Source of the DNA: Gottschalkiaceae bacterium SANA
GTDB lineage: Bacteria > Bacillota > Clostridia > Tissierellales > GPF-1
Direction of reading: 5' to 3'
Length of the DNA stretch: 64,000 nt
NCBI GenBank assembly: GCA_036323355.1
Contig: AP028876.1
Location: forward strand, 1,178,001 to 1,242,000
The notes beneath the pieces are model-generated. The model was not told where the DNA came from, did not search any database, and worked only from the letters and a program-made list of their open reading frames with translations. The translations under genes were made by a program, and so were the position numbers. Below are positions 10,726 to 54,708 of this stretch, piece by piece (positions within the stretch are counted from its first letter, which is position 1; each line of letters opens with the position of its first letter).

Positions 10726-11406
10726 TTATTCGTATTTTAACCCAATAAATTCTTCTTGGTATTCCCATCGATGCTTATTGTAAGGGCAGAAGTCTTGGCA
10801 GTGATCACAGCCGATAGTAAAGTTTTCGACAATGAGATCGGTTTTAAATGCGATACATTTTTTGCTATCTTTCGAGTTTTTTGTCAGGGCTTTTTCTGGG
10901 CATCTTTTCACACATATGCCACAGTGTCCTGGACATTCTGTCGGCGGCTCATCAAAGTCACAGGTTACATCCACATCCACTAGCCATGCGTGCAAGTGAC
11001 AATAAGAACCTTCTTCTGTATAGAAATATCCATTATTTCTTGTTATACCAATGCCCATTTCCGCAGCGAGATTATTTTTTATTGATGTTGCCAAGGTCGT
11101 CATATCCAAATGCTTTATCGTTCTTGTAGATAAAAATTCTTCGAATTCTGAAGCTGTATCATGTTCAAGTGACCCCTTCAAATAGCGTCCTTTAAACAAG
11201 TCTCTTTTGCTGACCTTGCCTTCTAATTGAGACGGTATTTTATAAAAGTTATAGTGAAAGGTGGCAATGATCATAGATTTAGCCCATGGGTGATCTTGTT
11301 TGATTTTTTCTATCGATTCATTTTCGATATCATCAAATTTTAAGGCACCAAACCGGCTATATCCAACAGCTAGTCCTTCGTCATACATTAATTCTGAAAT
11401 ATCCAT
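10726..11406 (-). CDS. Short QueG-like protein with two [4Fe-4S] clusters
   Basis: A 226-residue protein of the COG1600 (epoxyqueuosine reductase-like) type. C-terminal cluster motifs: CPGHCGICVKRCP (near 150-162), a further Cys in KKCIAF, and GCDHCQDFCPYN, which together can bind two [4Fe-4S] clusters. The N-terminal part (SMIIATFHYN, then LATSIKNNLAAEMGIGITRNNGY) resembles the QueG cobalamin-binding half but is clearly shorter than the 310-380 residues of true QueG. It may be a redox protein related to QueG rather than the tRNA-modifying enzyme. Stand-alone gene with its own start region, convergent with flavodoxin. Confidence 0.72.
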   Translation of the reverse strand: MDISELMYDEGLAVGYSRFGALKFDDIENESIEKIKQDHPWAKSMIIATFHYNFYKIPSQLEGKVSKRDLFKGRYLKGSLEHDTASEFEEFLSTRTIKHLDMTTLATSIKNNLAAEMGIGITRNNGYFYTEEGSYCHLHAWLVDVDVTCDFDEPPTECPGHCGICVKRCPEKALTKNSKDSKKCIAFKTDLIVENFTIGCDHCQDFCPYNKHRWEYQEEFIGLKYE

Positions 11407-11619
11407 TTGACCTCTTTTCTCTTTCCGTTAGTTTAACTCCATTTAGTTTACCATAAATTAGAGTCAATGGATAAAAGGGATACTAATCTAGAATGATGAA
11501 TTTTAATAGGTGTTATCATGCAGAGTTTACTGGTTTTAGTATAGGAAGGCCTGATATAATAAGAACAGTTCATGCAGAAAGGCAATGCATAAAATTTTAA
11601 GTTTTGGAAGGAGTAATCA

Positions 11620-12828
11620 ATGAAAGAAACGAAGAGTCAATTAAATATAGAAGTGATAAAGAGTGAAGTTGAAAAGATGAAAGATGAAATCGTCAGTTGG
11701 AGACGCCATTTTCATCAGCATGGGGAACTTTCCTTTCAGGAATTTGCAACATCTGATTTCATTGAAGAACAACTTGAAAGTTTTGGCGGAATCGAGATAT
11801 CCCGACCGACAAAAACAGGCGTCATCGCTAAGGTTATTGGAGCAAAGCCAGGTAGGACTCTTGCTTTGCGAGCGGACATCGACGCATTGCCAATGACAGA
11901 ATTAAATGATCTGCCTTATGCATCTGAGATTGAAGGTGTGATGCATTCATGCGGGCATGACGGACATACGGCGATTCTTTTAGGGATTGCAAAGCTATTT
12001 GCTGAACTGAAGGATCAAATGAGCGGTACCGTCGTTTGCATCTTTCAGCATGCTGAAGAACTTCCACCGGGCGGGGCTGTTGAAATGGTCAAAGCAGGTG
12101 TCATGGAAGGGATTGATGAAATCTACGGCTTGCATTTGTCTTCTTCATTCCCGACGGGAACCTTTGGCATTCGTTCTGGCTTTTTAACAGCGGCAACGGA
12201 TCGGTTTGATATCGAAGTCATAGGCAAGGGTGGACATTCAGCAATGCCAGAGACTTGCGTGGATCCCATTGTAATTGGCGCACAGATCATCAGCAACCTT
12301 CAAACGATTGTTTCAAGAAGAATAAAAGGCATTGAACCAGCTGTCTTGTCAGTCTGCCAAGTAGAAGCTGGGCATGCATATAATATTATTCCCAATACAA
12401 TGAGCATCACCGGTTCTGTAAGAACTTTTTCGCAAGAGACAAGAAATAATATGGCAAACATGATCAAAGAGATTTCCCAAGGGAATGCATCCTCATACGG
12501 AGCTGATTGTAAAGTGTCTTATGAACTCGGATACAGTTCTGTAGTCAATGATGAAGAATTGACTGAGAATGTAGAAGGGGTTGTAGAAGCTTGGTTTGGA
12601 AAAGAAAGTGTCTTGAAGATTGACCCGGTTATGCCGGGAGAAGATTTCTCTGCTTTTACAGAAGCGACGAATTGCCCAGGATGTTTTGTTGAGATTGGTA
12701 CAGCTAATGAAGTGCTGGGAACAACAATGCCCCATCATAACCCTAATTATCTAATGGATGAAGATGGATTATACTATGGAACGTCACTATTCGCAGGTAT
12801 TGTTTTTGATCGCTTGTTTGCAAACTAG
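11620..12828 (+). CDS. M20D family amidohydrolase (amino-acid deacylase type)
   Basis: A 402-residue metallohydrolase like hippurate hydrolase/N-acyl-amino-acid amidohydrolases. Metal and catalytic motifs visible in order: RRHFHQHGELSFQE (near 27), ALRADIDALPM, MHSCGHDGHTA (near 107), HAEELPPGGA (near 145), GKGGHSAMPE (dimerisation domain), MPGEDFSAF and MPHHNP near the end. The family cleaves an acyl group from amino acids or acts as an auxin-conjugate-like amidase; the substrate cannot be read here. A TATAAT-like -10 lies at 11555. It is followed after 54 bases by an OsmC gene. Confidence 0.88.
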   Translation: MKETKSQLNIEVIKSEVEKMKDEIVSWRRHFHQHGELSFQEFATSDFIEEQLESFGGIEISRPTKTGVIAKVIGAKPGRTLALRADIDALPMTELNDLPYASEIEGVMHSCGHDGHTAILLGIAKLFAELKDQMSGTVVCIFQHAEELPPGGAVEMVKAGVMEGIDEIYGLHLSSSFPTGTFGIRSGFLTAATDRFDIEVIGKGGHSAMPETCVDPIVIGAQIISNLQTIVSRRIKGIEPAVLSVCQVEAGHAYNIIPNTMSITGSVRTFSQETRNNMANMIKEISQGNASSYGADCKVSYELGYSSVVNDEELTENVEGVVEAWFGKESVLKIDPVMPGEDFSAFTEATNCPGCFVEIGTANEVLGTTMPHHNPNYLMDEDGLYYGTSLFAGIVFDRLFAN

Positions 12829-13720: not shown

Positions 13721-15505
13721 ATGAAGAAATTGGTAATGATTGTAGTAACTGCTTTTGTACTATTTAATGCAAATCCAGTCTTGGCAACAACGCAAGCTAT
13801 TCCGGAAATTGAATGGAAAAAAAGTTTGGGCGGTGCTTCTTCTGAATATGCTCAAAATACTCAGCCGACAAAAGATGGCGGATATATTGTTGTTGGCTCT
13901 ACATATTCAACTGATGGAGATGTATCGGGCAATCATGGAAATGAGGATGCTTGGGTTGTGAAGCTGGATGGCAAGGGTGAAATGGAATGGCAAAAATGCC
14001 TCGGTGGTTCATTGTATGATAAGGCGTACAGTATTCGAGAGACAAATGATAGTGGATATATTATTGCTGGTTATACAAATTCAAATGATGGCGATGTATC
14101 GGGCAACCATGGCAATATGGATGCTTGGCTTGTCAAGCTGGATGCGTACGGCGAAATTATTTGGCAGAAATGCTTAGGTGGTTCTCAGAATGAAGATGTG
14201 TTCGATATTCGGCAGACAGATGATGGTGGATATATACTTGTTGGTTCTACATATTCAGTTGATGGAAATGTGGTGGGTTGTCATGGAGATGGATCGGGCG
14301 ATTATGGCGAATTGGATGCTTGGGTAGTAAAACTGAAAGAAAACGGTGATATTGATTGGCAGAGATGCCTAGGTGGTAGTGCTTATGATGTTGCCCAAAG
14401 TATTCAGTTGACGAAGGATGGCGGCTATATAATTGCTGGCAAAACGTATTCGCAAGATGGCGATGTATCGGAGCCAATTGGCGAATTTGATGCGTGGATT
14501 ATAAAACTGAAGGAAACCGGTGAAATTGAATGGGAGAAATGCCTAGGTGGCACTTCTCATGATCATGCATACAATATTCAGCTAACCGATGATGGTGGAT
14601 ATGTGTTTGTTGGCTCAACATGGTCAAGTGATGGAGATGTATCGGGCTATCGTCGCGCCTATGATGTCTGGGTTGTAAAACTGAAGGAAAATGGTGACAT
14701 TGATTGGCAGAAATGCCTAGGTGGTGCGAATCATGATCAAGCCTATACGATTCAGCTGACAAATGACGGCGGATATATAGTTGCTGGCCAAACGCAATCA
14801 CAAGATGGCGATGTATCAGGCCATCATGGATATAACGATATTTGGGTTGTAAAACTGGATGAGAAGGGTGAAATCAATTGGCAGAAAAGCCTGGGTGGTA
14901 CCGAAAATGATCAAGCCTCCAGTATTCAGCTGACCGATGATGGTGGATATGTGCTTGCTGGTCATGTTTATTCACAAGATGGCGACGTATTGAGCAATCA
15001 TGGCAGCTGGGATGTTTGGATCGTAAAGTTTGAGGGGAATGGAGATAAAGCGCCTGCGTCGAATGGAGATGCATCGATGAATCGACCCAGAGCGATCATT
15101 TGCGAGCGGACCTTCACCGGTCAAACGCTTGCAACTTTTCGAGATGATGCATTTGGTTTACTGAAGGTTATCGATCCGGAAACGGGCGTCATTGATTTTC
15201 GCGCCCCCTTACGGTCGGAAGAAAAGGATGTGCGGGTAAGGATTTCTTATGCGGATATACAAATGAAAGTCGATGTTGGAGCGAAAAATCTTTTGATCGA
15301 GTATCGAGGGCGAGCAATTCAAATCCCCATGATTACTTTTGAGTGTGAGGAGCTTCTTTCCGAGATGCCAACCCACGAAGAAGCCATGATTGAAATTCAC
15401 TTGATTGAGAAAGAGGATGGTTCTCTTGAAAAAGTGATCCAACTAATTGTTGTCGAACAAGTGGATGAGAAGACGAAACTAGTACATCGAATGAATGTTC
15501 AATAA
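13721..15505 (+). CDS. Secreted protein with seven propeller-like repeats
   Basis: A 594-residue exported protein. Signal peptide at 1-23 (MKKLVMIVVTAFVLF, cleavage near VLATTQA). Seven repeats of about 50-60 residues follow, each with W(Q/E)K(C/S)LGG, DGGYI(I/V)AG and DGDVSG plus D(A/V)W(V/I)VKL. Seven such blades suggest a beta-propeller. The last ~130 residues (from about NRPRAIICERTFTG) form a separate beta-rich domain I do not recognise. Similar DGGY repeat proteins occur in secreted proteins of anaerobes and Bacteroidota. Start ATG 13721 is preceded by GGGAG; ATG 13706 is not. Alone in its unit, with a terminator after it. Function unknown; surface adhesion or ligand binding is a guess. 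Confidence 0.8.
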   Translation: MKKLVMIVVTAFVLFNANPVLATTQAIPEIEWKKSLGGASSEYAQNTQPTKDGGYIVVGSTYSTDGDVSGNHGNEDAWVVKLDGKGEMEWQKCLGGSLYDKAYSIRETNDSGYIIAGYTNSNDGDVSGNHGNMDAWLVKLDAYGEIIWQKCLGGSQNEDVFDIRQTDDGGYILVGSTYSVDGNVVGCHGDGSGDYGELDAWVVKLKENGDIDWQRCLGGSAYDVAQSIQLTKDGGYIIAGKTYSQDGDVSEPIGEFDAWIIKLKETGEIEWEKCLGGTSHDHAYNIQLTDDGGYVFVGSTWSSDGDVSGYRRAYDVWVVKLKENGDIDWQKCLGGANHDQAYTIQLTNDGGYIVAGQTQSQDGDVSGHHGYNDIWVVKLDEKGEINWQKSLGGTENDQASSIQLTDDGGYVLAGHVYSQDGDVLSNHGSWDVWIVKFEGNGDKAPASNGDASMNRPRAIICERTFTGQTLATFRDDAFGLLKVIDPETGVIDFRAPLRSEEKDVRVRISYADIQMKVDVGAKNLLIEYRGRAIQIPMITFECEELLSEMPTHEEAMIEIHLIEKEDGSLEKVIQLIVVEQVDEKTKLVHRMNVQ

Positions 15506-43964: not shown

Positions 43965-45098
43965 ATGAAAAAAACAGCATTATTTTTGATTTTGAGTATG
44001 GTAGTACTGACATTTGCTGGATGTGGTGGTGCAGCAGAGGAATCGAATACGATTCGAATTGGAACGATTGCACCGACAACTGGTCAGGTAGCGGTTTATG
44101 GACAGGCCGTTGATCAAGCTGTTCGCATGGCAGTGAAAGATGTAAATGCAGCGGGTGGTTTGTTGGACAAGCAAATCGAATTGATCGGTTATGACAATAA
44201 AGGTGATATTACAGAGTCTGTCAATGCATTCAATCGTTTGGTTGACAACGATGGAATTTCTGTATTTATTGGTGCTGTAATCTCTTCAACGACGTTGACA
44301 ATTGCACCATTGGCGGTAGAGGCTGGAATTCCTATGATTTCAGCAACGGCAACAAATCTAGAAATTACACCGGTTGGCGACAACATCTTCCGCGCATGTT
44401 TTATTGATCCTTATCAAGGTGTTGTTATGGCACAGTTTGCTGCAGAAGAGTTGAAAGCAAAGCGTGTCGGCATCTTGTTTAATACAGCTGATGACTACTC
44501 TACAGGCCTTGCAGATTCATTCAAAGCAGAATTTGAAGCGGCTGGCGGGACCATTACAAACTTCGAAGGATATACAGGCGGACAAGACAAAGACTTTAAG
44601 TCGATTCTAACGAATGTTAAAACAGAAGCACCAGACGTTTTGTTCTTACCGGATTATTATAATACGGTTTCCTTAATCGCTGAGCAGGCCAAAGAATTGG
44701 GCATCGAATCAATTTTGATCGGTGGAGATGGCTGGGACGGAGTCTTGGGCGTAACAGACGGAGCGGTTGAAGGCGCATATTATGCGAGCCATTTTGCAAA
44801 GGATGACCCGGCTGAAAATGTACAAGCTTTTATTACAGAATTTGAAGCAGAAACAGGTGAAATGCCAAATTCATTCTCAGCGTTGGGCTACGATGCGGCT
44901 ATGATTATGATTGAAGCGGTTCAAACAGCTGGATCAACAGATTCAGATGCAGTGGTAGCAGCCTTGCAAGCAACCGATTACGAAGGTATTACCGGACATA
45001 TTCAATTTGATGCAGACGGTAATCCTGTGAAGAGTATTTCAATTATTCATGTTGTTAATGGTGTCGATACACTTTATGGAAAATTTGACGCAAAATAA
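43965..45098 (+). CDS. livJ: Branched-chain amino-acid ABC transporter, binding lipoprotein 1
   Basis: A 377-residue periplasmic-type binding protein (Peripla_BP_6/LivJ). Signal peptide with lipobox FAGC at 17-20, then TIRIGTIAPTTGQVAVYGQA, the usual LivJ start, and VNAAGGLLDKQIELI, ISSTTLTIAPLAVEAGIPMI and DVLFLPDYYNTVSLIAEQA. Strong ribosome site (GGGGGAG). It is a close paralogue of the next gene; the two may bind different amino acids. Ile/Leu/Val is the default substrate but other amino acids are possible. Confidence 0.92.
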   Translation: MKKTALFLILSMVVLTFAGCGGAAEESNTIRIGTIAPTTGQVAVYGQAVDQAVRMAVKDVNAAGGLLDKQIELIGYDNKGDITESVNAFNRLVDNDGISVFIGAVISSTTLTIAPLAVEAGIPMISATATNLEITPVGDNIFRACFIDPYQGVVMAQFAAEELKAKRVGILFNTADDYSTGLADSFKAEFEAAGGTITNFEGYTGGQDKDFKSILTNVKTEAPDVLFLPDYYNTVSLIAEQAKELGIESILIGGDGWDGVLGVTDGAVEGAYYASHFAKDDPAENVQAFITEFEAETGEMPNSFSALGYDAAMIMIEAVQTAGSTDSDAVVAALQATDYEGITGHIQFDADGNPVKSISIIHVVNGVDTLYGKFDAK

Positions 45099-45269
45099 TA
45101 AAAACGAGAAAAATGAATACAAAGCCTCTAAAAAAAACGATTGACTGTCAGCCGAAAACATATTTTAAAAAACCTTCTTGTGTTTATGAACAAAATGTAA
45201 TATAGTTAAAGAAATATTTTCTTTTGCTTTAGCAGAGGAAAGTGAAATCGAGAAGGAGGAATGGTTGAT

Positions 45270-46412
45270 ATGAGAGGCAAAAAATACGTAGCATTATTTA
45301 TTTTGGTGGCATTGGTCCTCGGCGCATTTGCAGGATGTTCAGGCGGCGATACAGAAGCAGAGACGGTGAAAATTGGTCTCATTGCACCAACAACTGGCCA
45401 AGTAGCAGTTTACGGTCAAGCAGTGCAAAACGCAGTTGAAATGGCTGTTGAAGAACGAAATGCAGCTGGCGGTATTTTGGGGAAGCAAATTGAACTGATT
45501 TCCTACGATAACAAAGGTGACGCGACTGAAACTGTTAATGCATTTAACCGATTGGTTGATAATGATGGAATCGACGCATTTATTGGTGCGGTTATCAGTT
45601 CAACATCATTAACGATTGCTCCATTGGCAGTGGAAGCTGGCATACCGATGATTACACCTACAGGAACCAACTTGGAGATTACACCAATTGGTGACAATAT
45701 CTTCCGCGCATGCTTTATTGACCCGTATCAAGGCAAAGTAATCGGCCAATTCGCATTTAATGAATTGAAAGCACAAAAAGCGGCTGTTATGTTTAATACA
45801 GCGGATGATTATTCGGTTGGTTTGAAAGACGCATTTGTTGCGGCATTCGAAGCAGCTGGCGGTGAAATTGTTGCAGTAGAAGGCTACACTGGCGGAACTG
45901 ACAAGGACTTTAAAGCACTTTTGACAAATGTAAAAGCAGAAGCTCCGGATGTCTTGTTCCTTCCAGATTACTACAATACAGTTGGTTTGATCGCTGATCA
46001 AGCTAAGGAAGTTGGCGTAGATGCAACCTTGGTTGGGGCTGATGGATGGGATGGCGTTTTAGGCGTTTCTCCAGAGTCAGTTGAAGGCGGATACTTCGCA
46101 AACCATTATGCAAAAGATGACCCGGATGAGTTTGTTCAATCATTTATTTCTGAGTACACAGAAAAATATGGTGAGGCACCAAATGCTTTGGCGGCCTTGG
46201 GATATGATGGCGCAGAAATCATGTTCGCAGCGATTGAGTCTGCAGGTTCTACAGACAAAGCAGCGATTATTGAAGCTATGGGTAACACATCAATCGACGG
46301 TGTTACAGGCCACATCGTATTCGATGCGGACGGAAATCCAGAGAAGAGTATTTCAATCATTACAATTGAAGATGGAAAAGATGTGCTTTACGGTAAGTTT
46401 GGTGCAAAATAA
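45270..46412 (+). CDS. livJ: Branched-chain amino-acid ABC transporter, binding lipoprotein 2
   Basis: A 380-residue paralogue of the upstream binding protein. Lipobox AFAGC follows MRGKKYVALFILVALVL. I prefer ATG 45270 because AAGGAGGA (45253-45260) sits nine bases before it; ATG 45261 touches the ribosome site. Core matches the first copy (TVKIGLIAPTTGQVAVYGQA-type start, DNIFRACFIDPYQGK). An own promoter may lie in the 170-base gap (TTGACT near 45142 or TTGTGT with TATAGT near 45199). Followed by a strong hairpin before the permease genes. Confidence 0.92.
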   Translation: MRGKKYVALFILVALVLGAFAGCSGGDTEAETVKIGLIAPTTGQVAVYGQAVQNAVEMAVEERNAAGGILGKQIELISYDNKGDATETVNAFNRLVDNDGIDAFIGAVISSTSLTIAPLAVEAGIPMITPTGTNLEITPIGDNIFRACFIDPYQGKVIGQFAFNELKAQKAAVMFNTADDYSVGLKDAFVAAFEAAGGEIVAVEGYTGGTDKDFKALLTNVKAEAPDVLFLPDYYNTVGLIADQAKEVGVDATLVGADGWDGVLGVSPESVEGGYFANHYAKDDPDEFVQSFISEYTEKYGEAPNALAALGYDGAEIMFAAIESAGSTDKAAIIEAMGNTSIDGVTGHIVFDADGNPEKSISIITIEDGKDVLYGKFGAK

Positions 46413-49107: not shown

Positions 49108-49812
49108 ATGCTACAAGTACGAGATCTACATGTATATTATGACAAGATTCATGCGATCAAGGGCGTCGACTTTGATGTAAAGCCAGGGGAGATTGTTTCT
49201 TTGATCGGTGCCAATGGCGCTGGGAAGACGACAATTCTGCATACGATATCGGGGATTCTAAAGCCAACTGAAGGATTTGTGAAATTTCAAGGCGAGGAAA
49301 TCAACTCAGTTCCTGCGCATCGAATTGTATATATGGGTATGGCTCATGTACCGGAGGGGCGACGAATTTTTGCGCAGATGACGGTATTAGAAAATCTGCA
49401 AATGGGCGCTTTTACTCGAAGTGATACCGTTCAGATTCGAAGAGATATGGAAAAAATCTTTACCCGTTTTCCACGGTTAAAGGAACGAATGGGTCAATTG
49501 GCGGGTACTCTTTCAGGTGGCGAACAACAGATGTTGGCCATGGGACGAGCATTGATGTCAAACCCGACGTTGATTCTTTTGGATGAACCATCCATGGGTC
49601 TAGCACCGATTTTGGTTGACCAGATCTTCTCGATTATTGAAGACATTAAGGCGATGGGAACAACGGTATTGCTTGTTGAACAGAATGCAACACGAGCACT
49701 TTCCATTGCGGACCGTGCCTATGTTTTGGAAACAGGTAAGATTGTCATGTCTGGCGATGCCAAAGAACTATTAGCAAACAGCGATGTAAGATCCGCTTAT
49801 TTAGGCGGATAA
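49108..49812 (+). CDS. livF: Branched-chain amino-acid ABC ATPase LivF
   Basis: A 234-residue ATPase. Walker A GANGAGKTT, VPEGRRIFAQMTVLENLQMG, signature LSGGEQQMLAMGRALMSNP, Walker B LILLDEPSMGLAP, and VEQNATRALSIADRAYVLETG at the end. The last codons GGCGGA-TAA form part of a stem in the structured 3' region that follows. Confidence 0.95.
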   Translation: MLQVRDLHVYYDKIHAIKGVDFDVKPGEIVSLIGANGAGKTTILHTISGILKPTEGFVKFQGEEINSVPAHRIVYMGMAHVPEGRRIFAQMTVLENLQMGAFTRSDTVQIRRDMEKIFTRFPRLKERMGQLAGTLSGGEQQMLAMGRALMSNPTLILLDEPSMGLAPILVDQIFSIIEDIKAMGTTVLLVEQNATRALSIADRAYVLETGKIVMSGDAKELLANSDVRSAYLGG

Positions 49813-49916
49813 AGCGAAGCGAATCCGCAGGCGAAGATAGAGCGACTGCGATAACCTTGTACTATCCGCCGTTATGGAGGTTAGGAACTAACCGAAGGTT
49901 GAGGGCGGAGGCGGAT
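49804..49916 (+). other. Structured 3' region after livF with interlocked inverted repeats
   Basis: GGCGGAT at 49804-49810 can pair with ATCCGCC at 49864-49870, enclosing CGCAG/CTGCG (49826-49830 with 49846-49850). Alternatively GCGGAT pairs with ATCCGC at 49823-49828, or ATCCGCC pairs with GGCGGAT at 49910-49916. GGTTAG-GAA-CTAACC (49879-49893) adds another hairpin. It is more G/C-rich than the surroundings and contains no gene. Could be an RNA structure of the liv mRNA or a small repeated element. Confidence 0.55.
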
Positions 49917-50030
49917 CAGTCAAGTATATGTTAAAGTATGATCCACTTAGGTGTGGATCAGTCAAGTATATGTTAAAGTATGATCCACTTAGGTGTGGAT
50001 CAGTCAGGTATATGTTAATGTATGATCCAC
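49909..50030. repeat. Three tandem 42-bp repeats, each with an inverted repeat
   Basis: Units start at 49909, 49951 and 49993. Units 1 and 2 are identical over bases 5-42; unit 3 differs by two bases and lacks the last few. Each holds TGGATCA (CGGATCA in unit 1) and TGATCCA about 20 bases apart, so each can fold into a hairpin, and neighbouring units can pair with each other. No spacers, hence not CRISPR. Confidence 0.9.
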
Positions 50031-50036
50031 AAGATT

Positions 50037-50064
50037 AAAAAGAAGGCTTCGGCCTTCTTTTTGT
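50037..50064 (+). terminator. Terminator of the liv operon
   Basis: AAAAAGAAGGC-TTCG-GCCTTCTTTTT: perfect 11-bp stem with a stable TTCG tetraloop and T run. Confidence 0.95.
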
Positions 50065-50206
50065 ATGCAAAATTTTGAAGGGTATGGGGATCGATGAATG
50101 GAGTAAGAGAAAGAATTTAAGATTAAGAAGTTGAAAGACATAAACTGTGATAAAATACTAAAATATGAAAGTGTAAGAATAAACAGAGAATTAGAAAGGA
50201 CAGCAG

Positions 50207-51070
50207 ATGTATCAGGAAGGGTTAAGTGAACAAATCAACATTGAATATCAAGACGCGAAAATTTCTATAAATGACAAGGTCTTACTGTTTGACAACAAGG
50301 GAAATTCTATCTTGAGATCTCAAGATGATGAGTGTTTTTTTATCTATAAAGACTTACAAAATGAAGGTGTTGAGTGGGGCGATCAGGATTTTTATTACTT
50401 GTTTTCTATCGAGAATGAAAAATATTTTGTTTTGATTGGCCAATTGCCGGAAGGGTTCAGTGAGAGATTTTTGACATGCTCAAGAAGTGAAATTTTCTCT
50501 AACCGGTCGGACAAATTTTCATATATCACCCTCACAGCTTCGCACATTTACGACTGGTATAAGAAAACAAAATTTTGTGGTGCCTGTGGTGAGCCAATGG
50601 AAGCGAGAACCGACGAACGAGCCAAAACCTGCAAGCATTGCGGCAATCGAATCTACCCACAAATTAGTCCGGTGGTGATTGTGGCGGTATCTAATGCAAA
50701 CGAGTTATTGTTAACCAAGTATGCAAACCGTGCCCATAAGCGATATGCCTTGGTGGCGGGGTTTGTGGAAGTCGGCGAAACCTTGGAAGCGGCTGTAAAA
50801 CGAGAAGTCATGGAAGAAACCGGTGTGAGGGTTAAGAACATCAAATACTTCGATAGCCAGCCCTGGGGGATTACAGGCGGATTGCTTTCTGGTTTTTTTG
50901 CCGACTTGGACGGGGACAGCACCTTAACCGTGGATTATGAGGAACTGCATGAAGCAAGATGGATGCCCGCAAAGGATGTCCAAGAAATGGAGCTCAATAC
51001 AAAGTCTCTGACGGGCACGTTGATAGAAGTATGGCGAGAAAAGATTACTTTTAGCGAAACACGAAAATAG
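50207..51070 (+). CDS. nudC: NudC-like NADH/NAD pyrophosphatase
   Basis: A 287-residue Nudix hydrolase. Zinc ribbon with four Cys (FCGACGEPM near 123, CKHCGNRIYP near 146), then the Nudix box GFVEVGETLEAAVKREVMEE followed by TGV (about 185-207). The NudC hallmark SQPW is present (FDSQPWGITGG near 222), but the usual PFP continuation is replaced by GITGG. NudC splits NAD(H) to NMN(H) and AMP and removes NAD caps from RNA. The changed loop leaves some doubt about substrate. First gene of a run ending near 51.9 kb. Confidence 0.85.
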   Translation: MYQEGLSEQINIEYQDAKISINDKVLLFDNKGNSILRSQDDECFFIYKDLQNEGVEWGDQDFYYLFSIENEKYFVLIGQLPEGFSERFLTCSRSEIFSNRSDKFSYITLTASHIYDWYKKTKFCGACGEPMEARTDERAKTCKHCGNRIYPQISPVVIVAVSNANELLLTKYANRAHKRYALVAGFVEVGETLEAAVKREVMEETGVRVKNIKYFDSQPWGITGGLLSGFFADLDGDSTLTVDYEELHEARWMPAKDVQEMELNTKSLTGTLIEVWREKITFSETRK

Positions 51071-53523: not shown

Positions 53524-54435
53524 TTACGCATAAATTCCCATAGAAAGATATTTCTCGCCTCCATCTGGGGCAATCGTCACAAGCTGATCGCCAGCCTGAT
53601 AGGACTCTGCTAAACGCAGGGTCGCCAGAATGTTGGCTGCGGCGGAGATACCCACAAACAGTCCTTCAGTTTTAACCAATCGTTTGGCAAAGGCCAAGGC
53701 ATCCTCCGTTGTGACGGTTAGCACATCATCAACGTATTTCGCACGATAGATCTCTGGGATAAAGCCTGCACCAATCCCTTGGATCTTATGGGGACCGGGA
53801 GTTCCACCTGACAACACGTCGGACTCTTCAGGTTCGACAGCAATAATCTGAATCTCTTGGTTTTCTTCTTTTAGACGCTTACCAACGCCTGTAATCGTAC
53901 CACCTGTACCTACGCCTGCAACAAAGGCTGAAATTTTAGGAAGGTCGGCTAGAATTTCTTCTGCCGTGGTTTCATAATGTTTGCACGGATTGTGCTTGTT
54001 GACAAATTGATAGGGGATAAAAACATTTGCATCTCTTTCCTGCATGGAGAGGGCTAAGTCGATGGTACCTTGCATGCCCTTGGATCCCGGTGTTAATTCA
54101 AGATGCGCACCGTAGGCGGTAATCAATTGGCGGCGTTCTTCGCTCATGCTATCTGGCATGATAATGGTAATGTCATAGCCCTTCAAGCGACCAATTAGAG
54201 CGAGAGCAATGCCTGTGTTGCCACTGGAGGGTTCAACGATTTTCATGCCCGGCCTTAGTGTTCCAGCTTTCTCTGCGGCTTCAATCATGCCCAATGCGGC
54301 TCGGTCCTTGACGCTGCCACCTGGATTCATTCCTTCTAGCTTCACATATACTTCAGCCCCGGATTTTGGAGTGATTTTCTGCAGTTTCACCATGGGTGTA
54401 TGTCCAATCAGTTCAATTAAATTATTGACAATCAT
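53524..54435 (-). CDS. cysK: Cysteine synthase A (O-acetylserine sulfhydrylase)
   Basis: A 303-residue PLP enzyme making cysteine from O-acetylserine and sulfide. PLP lysine K43 in NPGGSVKDRAAL, substrate loop EPSSGNTGIALA near 69, phosphate-binding GVGTGGTITG near 175, and GISAAANILA near the end. GAAAGGAG before ATG. Preceded by a T-box leader whose specifier codon reads UGC (Cys), so expression should rise when tRNA-Cys is uncharged. No cysE neighbour. Confidence 0.95.
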   Translation of the reverse strand: MIVNNLIELIGHTPMVKLQKITPKSGAEVYVKLEGMNPGGSVKDRAALGMIEAAEKAGTLRPGMKIVEPSSGNTGIALALIGRLKGYDITIIMPDSMSEERRQLITAYGAHLELTPGSKGMQGTIDLALSMQERDANVFIPYQFVNKHNPCKHYETTAEEILADLPKISAFVAGVGTGGTITGVGKRLKEENQEIQIIAVEPEESDVLSGGTPGPHKIQGIGAGFIPEIYRAKYVDDVLTVTTEDALAFAKRLVKTEGLFVGISAAANILATLRLAESYQAGDQLVTIAPDGGEKYLSMGIYA

Positions 54436-54452: not shown

Positions 54453-54702
54453 AAAAAACACACCTCGCCTCAATTAAGAGGCGAGGTGTTATCTCGCGGT
54501 TCCACTCTAGTTTTAGGTTATACAACCCTCTCATTGCGGATACAATCATATCAGCTTCTCGATAACGGGAGAATCCCGTACGTGCCTACTTGATTCGGCA
54601 GTCCGCTCTGAAGAGCACTTCGATTAAGTATTCTTAAGAGGTCACAGCACTCCTCTCTCTCTGGGAAGAATAAATTAATCTACTTTCCTTCATCATCGCG
54701 TT
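54453..54702 (-). ncRNA. T-box leader (tRNA-Cys type) of cysK
   Basis: On the minus strand: AGTA-containing stem I with GATTAATTTATTCTT pairing AAGAATACTTAATC, the AGAGAG element, a candidate specifier TGC (complement of 54615-54617, in GAAGTGCTC), then the T-box core AGAGTGGAACCGCG (54508-54495). The terminator ACACCTCGCCTC/GAGGCGAGGTGT (54460-54489) is followed by a T run. In T-boxes uncharged tRNA stabilises the antiterminator. The specifier matches the cysteine gene it controls. Confidence 0.93.
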
Positions 54703-54708
54703 TTTTGT

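Follow-up and report, generated by a model that had tools for sequence, protein, structure and literature searches.

Excerpts of the study of pneumococcal BOX elements (PMC3049150) contain the authors' argument that BOX copies acting as 3′ adducts of operons may impede 3′–5′ exonucleases. For Bacillus cereus, longer half-lives were found for genes co-transcribed with bcr3, with too few transcripts for a conclusion, according to the part of that report used here (PMC3446304). Template switching has been proposed to create and repair stems without selection (PMC8794818, in the passages concerned). The published palindromic repeats with which we compare our locus are, as these excerpts describe them, dispersed families, whereas the array described here occupies a single locus in two congeners. 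It is locus-specific, is found in two species of one genus, and stands outside the described dispersed families. A literature search that mostly covered papers free of subscription returned no publication on such an array after livF.

Architecture of the region downstream of livF

The array is located in a stretch of 64,000 nucleotides of Gottschalkiaceae bacterium SANA (contig AP028876.1, positions 1,178,001–1,242,000), which we call the window and whose numbering is used unless another locus is named. The genome itself is referred to as G000, and its congeners of the same genus are G001 and G002. The region is composed of the following parts.

49108–49812, + strand: livF-like gene for the ATP-binding subunit of a branched-chain amino acid ABC transporter, final gene of the liv operon (open reading frame and NCBIfam)
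49791–49810, + strand: hairpin across the livF stop codon (ATCCGC..GCGGAT) from folding, possible seed of the array
49813–49881, + strand: front segment of 69 nt (14 nt in G002), carrying the arms ATCCGC (49823) and ATCCGCC (49864)
49882–49931, + strand: unit u0, with the block TAGGAACTAACCGAAGGTT at 49882–49900
49932–49973, + strand: unit u1, with the short-loop hairpin H1 at 49939–49960, TGATCCAC-TTAGGT-GTGGATCA
49974–50015, + strand: unit u2, with the short-loop hairpin H2 at 49981–50002
50016–50036, + strand: truncated unit u3, whose right arm TGATCCAC is without a short-loop partner and which runs into the terminator
50037–50063, + strand: intrinsic terminator from folding, GAAGGC-TTCG-GCCTTC with A/T flanks
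50207–51070, + strand: next gene, a nudC-like NAD(+) diphosphatase (NCBIfam NF001299)

The best NCBIfam match of the livF-like gene is LivF with 277.6 bits, which is under the curated cut-off of 441, and the C terminus AYLGG of its product is common to G000 and both congeners. The nudC-like product scores 188.7 bits against NF001299, above the cut-off of 158. Upstream of the liv permease genes, the window holds two similar ORFs in tandem (43965–45098 and 45261–46412), which may encode branched-chain amino acid binding proteins.

The three copies of a 42-nt unit reported in the first-pass annotation are indeed present at 49913–50038, with spacings of 42 and 42 nt and identities of 100, 100, and 79%, and the repeat receives a TRF score of 222. 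The arms TGGATCA/TGATCCA that had been assigned to every unit hold in full for the right side, TGATCCA occurring in all three units (49939, 49981, and 50023), whereas the left arm TGGATCA is exact in only two of the three; in the register of 49913, the first unit starts with GGCGGATCA instead. Upstream of the units, arms of the GGCGGAT/ATCCGCC type do exist, but their described alternation comes down to GGCGGAT at two positions (49804 and 49910) and ATCCGCC at one (49864), with two further ATCCGC 6-mers at 49791 (inside livF) and 49823. Position 49804, from which the annotation counted the sequence behind livF, lies inside the gene, which ends at 49812, and the distance from the livF stop to the terminator is 224 nt rather than ∼260. 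The strong terminator expected after the array is recovered by folding as a predicted stem-loop followed by U at 50037–50063 (−14.3 kcal/mol). A script search places a terminator at +228, and the consensus terminator scan reported none after livF despite the folded stem-loop and U.

The 42-bp palindromes TGGATCA...TGATCCA with their 20-nt loop, as seen in the first-pass annotation, represent one of two registers. In the second register, each right arm is paired with the next left arm across a short loop, which gives TGATCCAC-TTAGGT-GTGGATCA in G000 and ATCCGC-AGACTTAG-GCGGAT in G002. We also considered and rejected a coding array: a 36-amino acid ORF at 49928–50038 (MLKYDPLRCGSVKY...) is open here, but the full units of G002, at 44 nt, are no multiple of three and break the frame, and a comparable frame in G002, judged by eye, reaches an early stop.

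Predicted folding and rarity within the genome

Including the terminator, the segment 49790–50066 folds better than 200 of 200 dinucleotide shuffles (z −5.76), and the counterpart region of G002 reaches a z of −4.83. Mutually exclusive folds had been proposed for this sequence. In the front part, the hairpin across the livF stop codon (49791–49810; −10.6 kcal/mol on its own) has a pair probability of 0.999 against 0.001 and 0.0 for the two alternative pairings tested, whereas competing registers do occur within the array (0.1–0.63). The predicted pairing is 0.63 for H1 and 0.31 for H2 in G000, with rival pairings of up to 0.60, and 0.999, 0.25, and 0.81 for H1, H2, and H3 in G002. In the predicted ensembles, the linkers and the u0 block are unpaired in part (mean unpaired 0.46–0.80).

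For comparison with the rest of the genome, we ranked 134 intergenic regions of 100–450 nt on both strands, with 20 shuffles each, from 464 kb that comprise the window and 20 sampled stretches (∼13% of the genome). Ordered by folding z, the plus strand of intergenic region 49813–50206 is fourth among the 268 strand-regions, and its minus strand is 14th. By energy per base the region is outside the ten lowest of the same 268 strand-regions; strongly folded intergenic regions are therefore not rare in this genome. A 142-nt intergenic region at L144:10713–10854 (G000:C1:790713-790854), for instance, reaches −64 kcal/mol and is far more stable per base than the livF array region. It follows an ORF and contains a pair of neighboring hairpins, one more stem, and a stem that resembles a terminator; Rfam gave no match within it, and a fluoride riboswitch is situated 1.2 kb away, at 12068–12137 on the minus strand.

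The same 464 kb contain seven tandem rows with a period of at least 15 that are mostly outside ORFs of at least 70 amino acids, and by eye only the livF array among them joins a ∼40-nt unit with inverted arms. One row, of 414-nt units at L142 and partly over ORFs, scores higher than the livF array, and the next lower row scores 122 with 27-nt units. In the L142 row (10771–12333), a 414-bp segment is repeated 3.8 times in tandem with 89% matches; the row is presumably an amplified cold-shock-type gene. Elsewhere in the window, seven 174-nt tandem repeats at 13805–15043 are 63–74% alike to the first.

Distribution of the array

The first-pass annotation had considered that the array might have no other copies and no conservation. 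The former holds for DNA searches of its own genome, which gave no second copy above chance, as was also the case in G001 and G002; the latter does not, a homologous array being present in the congener G002. A covariance model built on the unit (R1), run with Infernal under stricter filters on 249 genomes of the order, matched at E ≤ 0.01 in two of them, G000 and G002, always at the livF locus, and in none of the 246 genomes searched besides G000–G002. The mobile palindromic repeat suggested at the outset is thus not borne out, as the matches elsewhere in G000 are at chance level and those across the order fall on the same locus. Among 60 relatives searched, the only clear array homologue is that of G002. 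R1 matches in G003, G046, and G024 (E 0.08–0.8 per genome in the search of 60 genomes) were taken as chance, and many weak DNA matches in relatives as chance or terminator-to-terminator matches, some of them falling on parts of the array and not on the terminator.

The livF loci of other genera agree with this distribution. No 40-nt hairpin array follows livF in any of 79 loci with at least 200 nt downstream (out of 80), and four of the 79 have tandem repeats of 15–21 nt; these loci were delimited with a crude stop-codon finder, and positions may be shifted by some bases. A second set comprised 30 loci from the 66 livF matches listed, 26 of which were parsed and 25 of which had at least 200 nt downstream. 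Apart from those of G000 and G002, none of these 25 loci, 22 of which are from other genera, has such an array, and two carry repeats of 15–17 nt.

Neither in the array nor in L032 does any Rfam family reach its gathering score, and two sub-threshold matches were found in 49700–50200 (E 0.97 and 2.7). The only Rfam family in the window is a T-box leader (RF00230; 131 bits) at 54474–54705 on the minus strand. It precedes an ORF at 54435–53524 on the same strand, which may be cysK.

Comparison with the congeners

G002 shows the same elements at the same position and in the same order: the livF stop, TAGGAACTAACCGAAGRTT, three units of which the third is shortened, and the terminator. The block after livF reads TAGGAACTAACCGAAGATT in G002 and TAGGAACTAACCGAAGGTT in G000, with 18 of 19 identical positions and one mismatch, and the terminators after the two arrays share 25 of 26 aligned bases. 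The full units of G002 are 44 nt long, and their arms differ from those of G000 yet still pair. At four-fold degenerate sites, 44 of 85 positions in livG and 57 of 103 in livF are identical between the two genomes. The alignment of u0–u3 scores 0.617, which is higher than all 200 single-base shuffles (maximum 0.552), whereas the stretch from the terminator to nudC scores 0.591 and remains within the range of its shuffles (maximum 0.596, n = 200).

G001, in contrast, has neither the array nor nudC, and its livF stop is followed by a terminator with a GAAA loop. The terminator that follows nudC in G002 has the same loop. Because nudC is also missing, a deletion is likelier than an empty site, and one deletion, stretching from the end of livF to that of nudC, perhaps removed both array and nudC from G001. 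The G001 terminator matches the G002 terminators behind nudC and behind livF with equal BLAST scores (E 0.37 for either) and in the same orientation, and the GAAA loop alone favors that of nudC, so that a single deletion is only suggested.

Over the liv region, G001 and G002 are more similar to each other, with 91% identity over 2298 nt, than to G000, with 85% over about 1510 nt; within livF taken by itself, the difference is small (87.9% for G001–G002, 85.0 and 85.1% for the other two pairs). Given this relationship, the array most simply predates the species split and would have been lost in G001.

Evolution of the units and covariation

The full units u1 and u2 are nearly identical within a genome (41 of 42 positions in G000 and 43 of 44 in G002) and diverged between genomes (29–31 of 38 aligned positions identical), which indicates that they have been homogenized. 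For covariation, we aligned five rows, namely two units per species and the livF end. In the 8-pair short-loop stem, 90% of the cells hold standard pairs, versus 17.5–47.4% when the pairing is slid by 1–3 columns. In two of the eight pairs, both bases have changed and still pair; one pair is broken in three of the five rows. The covariation score of the stem is reached by five of 500 shuffles, and the number of double-changed pairs by 248 of 500. Since the rows of one genome are near copies, the covariation corresponds to two events at most, and since the array occurs in two genomes only, it rests on two lineages.

By eye, the left arm GGCGGAT of u0, which is without a short-loop partner, stays GC-type, whereas H1 and H2 have arms unlike those of G002 on both sides. 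The first left arm GGCGGATCA keeps G002-type letters, so that the long-loop pairing now contains a C-A mismatch. An unpartnered first left arm that is unchanged, together with the long-loop mismatch, favors the view that it is the short hairpin that is kept. The comparison thus favors the short-loop hairpin between neighboring repeats, and not the 42-bp palindrome, as the pairing that best survives divergence, presumably kept by selection or by template switching.

Possible origin from the livF stop-codon hairpin

The array unit can be aligned with the hairpin across the livF stop codon, ATCCGC-TTATTTAG-GCGGAT. A 24-mer made of the final 22 bases of livF and two more agrees with the G002 array in 19 positions, whereas none of the 5796 other 24-mers of the G000 liv region exceeds 17. 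In G001, one of 2270 windows reaches 18, which is the score of G002's own livF end against the G002 array. Against its own array, the livF end of G000 matches at only 12 of 24 positions without gaps. R1 also matches the livF end (E 1.2e-4), but the livF end is one of the five rows in both R1 and the pair count, so that this match lends no independent support to the livF end as a seed; an independent test is provided by the 24-mer match of the livF end to the G002 array.

The motif AYLG is found near the C terminus in 21 of the 26 parsed livF loci (the parser required YLG or FLG). As AYLG is widespread at the livF C terminus, the repeats are likelier to have been copied from the coding end than the reverse, on the evidence of one alignment. 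In a more far-reaching account, which we consider rather unlikely, the livF stop hairpin was copied into the 3′ UTR and multiplied into a hairpin array, a noncoding RNA module whose stems would be kept paired during divergence by template switching and unit homogenization. If true, such a stop-codon-hairpin origin would represent a naturally caught birth of a structured 3′ UTR RNA.

Possible function and alternative explanations

We tentatively read the array as locus-specific 3′ UTR hairpins that were born by tandem duplication, became homogenized, and most likely act on the 3′ end of the liv mRNA, a reading that we hold to be nearly, if not quite, probable. Tandem duplication, probably seeded by the livF stop hairpin, would have made the array, and unequal exchange or slippage would keep its units alike. 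A row of 6–8-bp hairpins, with other registers possible, would together with the u0 block and the terminator provide a structured mRNA 3′ end, which most likely would slow 3′-to-5′ decay or determine where the liv transcript is processed at its 3′ end. The location on the coding strand, downstream of livF and ahead of the predicted terminator, would fit a 3′ UTR stability element, one of the first-pass suggestions. Against such a role, a terminator hairpin alone is usually deemed enough for the protection of a transcript end, G001 lives without the array, and the short hairpins are not favored everywhere by folding. The role proposed here is the same as that suggested for BOX at operon ends in the excerpted text of its authors (PMC3049150).

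The strongest rival to a 3′ UTR function is a near-neutral hairpin minisatellite, in which slippage or unequal exchange multiplies the unit and quasi-palindrome template switching keeps the arms, with no function beyond the terminator. The single locus, the near-identity of the full units, the perfect arms of the expanded copies, a possible seed in the livF stop hairpin, and the tolerated absence in G001 all suit it, and template switching is described as both maker and keeper of stems (PMC8794818, in the part used). However, the conserved block in u0 and the layout of u0 followed by three units have been kept while about half of the four-fold sites differ, and a neutral array would be expected to vary in copy number or to disappear. 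We regard the minisatellite as a serious possibility, if on the improbable side. A 3′ UTR-derived small RNA, that is, a terminator-bearing fragment cut from the liv mRNA and acting in trans via the u0 block or the repeated linkers, was also suggested in part at the outset, as a small RNA. In its favor, a conserved block precedes the repeated hairpins and the terminator, and the block and linkers are predicted to be partly unpaired. Its probability is low: the array contains no promoter-like site on the plus strand and one weak match on the minus strand (49965–49938), no Rfam family matches at gathering score, and the linkers vary between the species. Nor was a CsrA to be sponged found in any of the three genomes. 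The idea of a CsrA sponge arose from AGGA motifs in the G002 units and was rejected, PF02599 being found in none of the three genomes (97–98% complete) and in three of 14 control genomes (E. coli, B. subtilis, and T. maritima), which renders CsrA binding very unlikely.

A protein-binding array was among the first-pass suggestions; at the DNA level, it might be bound by a dimeric protein, for instance as a nudC operator cluster or a chromosome-organizing site. The dyads are present, perfect over 8 bp and spaced by 42 bp, or about four helical turns. The suggestion is weakened because half-site arms, spacer (6 versus 8), and unit length or period (42 versus 44) all differ between G000 and G002; moreover, the array lies before the terminator, about 170–290 bp from nudC, and has no other genome copy above chance, so that we consider protein binding very improbable. 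A mobile palindromic repeat of the REP/BIME, MITE, or BOX type would agree with the palindromic, modular, and intergenic nature of the array and with the arrayless locus of G001. Yet searches of G000, G001, and G002 gave only one copy above chance at most, R1 under stricter filters has no match at E ≤ 0.01 in the 246 other genomes of the order, the G001 locus points to a likely deletion instead of an empty site by its missing nudC, and no Y1 transposase was found in G001 or G002, with one sub-cut-off match in G000; a mobile origin is extremely improbable. The 3′ UTR reading, if the array sets liv mRNA stability, would make it a simple natural tuning device.

Comparison with known repeat systems

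By its build alone, the livF array, with its u0, three 42/44-nt units, and the terminator, may be likened to the BOX plan. The internal modules of BOX measure 40–50 nt. According to the excerpts, the BOX elements of Streptococcus (boxA-boxB(n)-boxC) are likewise modular and intergenic, vary in module number, have predicted stem-loops, and are sometimes 3′ adducts of operons (PMC3049150). In contrast to the livF array, which was found at a single locus in two congeneric species, BOX is described there as chromosome-wide and mobile-like (PMC3049150), and no dispersed copies of our array were found in G000 or, with R1 at E ≤ 0.01, in the 249 genomes of the order. REP/PU and BIME sequences with their RAYT transposases resemble it as regular arrays of palindromic extragenic units in which complementary changes keep the palindrome, as stated in the part of the report used (PMC2817692). 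The livF array differs from them in being undispersed, in the single orientation of all its units, and in that no Y1 transposase was found in G002 (compare PMC2817692, same part); many dispersed copies were found neither in G000 nor with R1 in the 249 genomes. A cognate RAYT (Y1; PF01797) was not detected in G001 or G002, and G000 has one match of 22 bits, below the cut-off of 23. This match is located at L200 (G000:C1:2835064-2835285, minus strand), within an open frame of 260 amino acids. As for MITE features, the repeat scan lists no inverted pair of at least 12 nt, and the arrayless G001 locus is no clean empty site, as nudC is missing.

The bcr1–bcr18 repeats of Bacillus cereus share with the livF array that they are Gram-positive intergenic repeats in transcribed UTRs but, by their description in the excerpts, are set apart as genome-spread families from a single-locus array (PMC3446304). 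Template-switch hairpins and quasi-palindromes are similar in that their stems change on both sides and stay paired; the published work, in the passages used, concerns RNA genes, whereas the livF case is a tandem array (PMC8794818). With arms that have changed together and units that are alike, the livF array may allow selection on RNA structure to be separated from the mutational upkeep of hairpins, which is hard in dispersed families.
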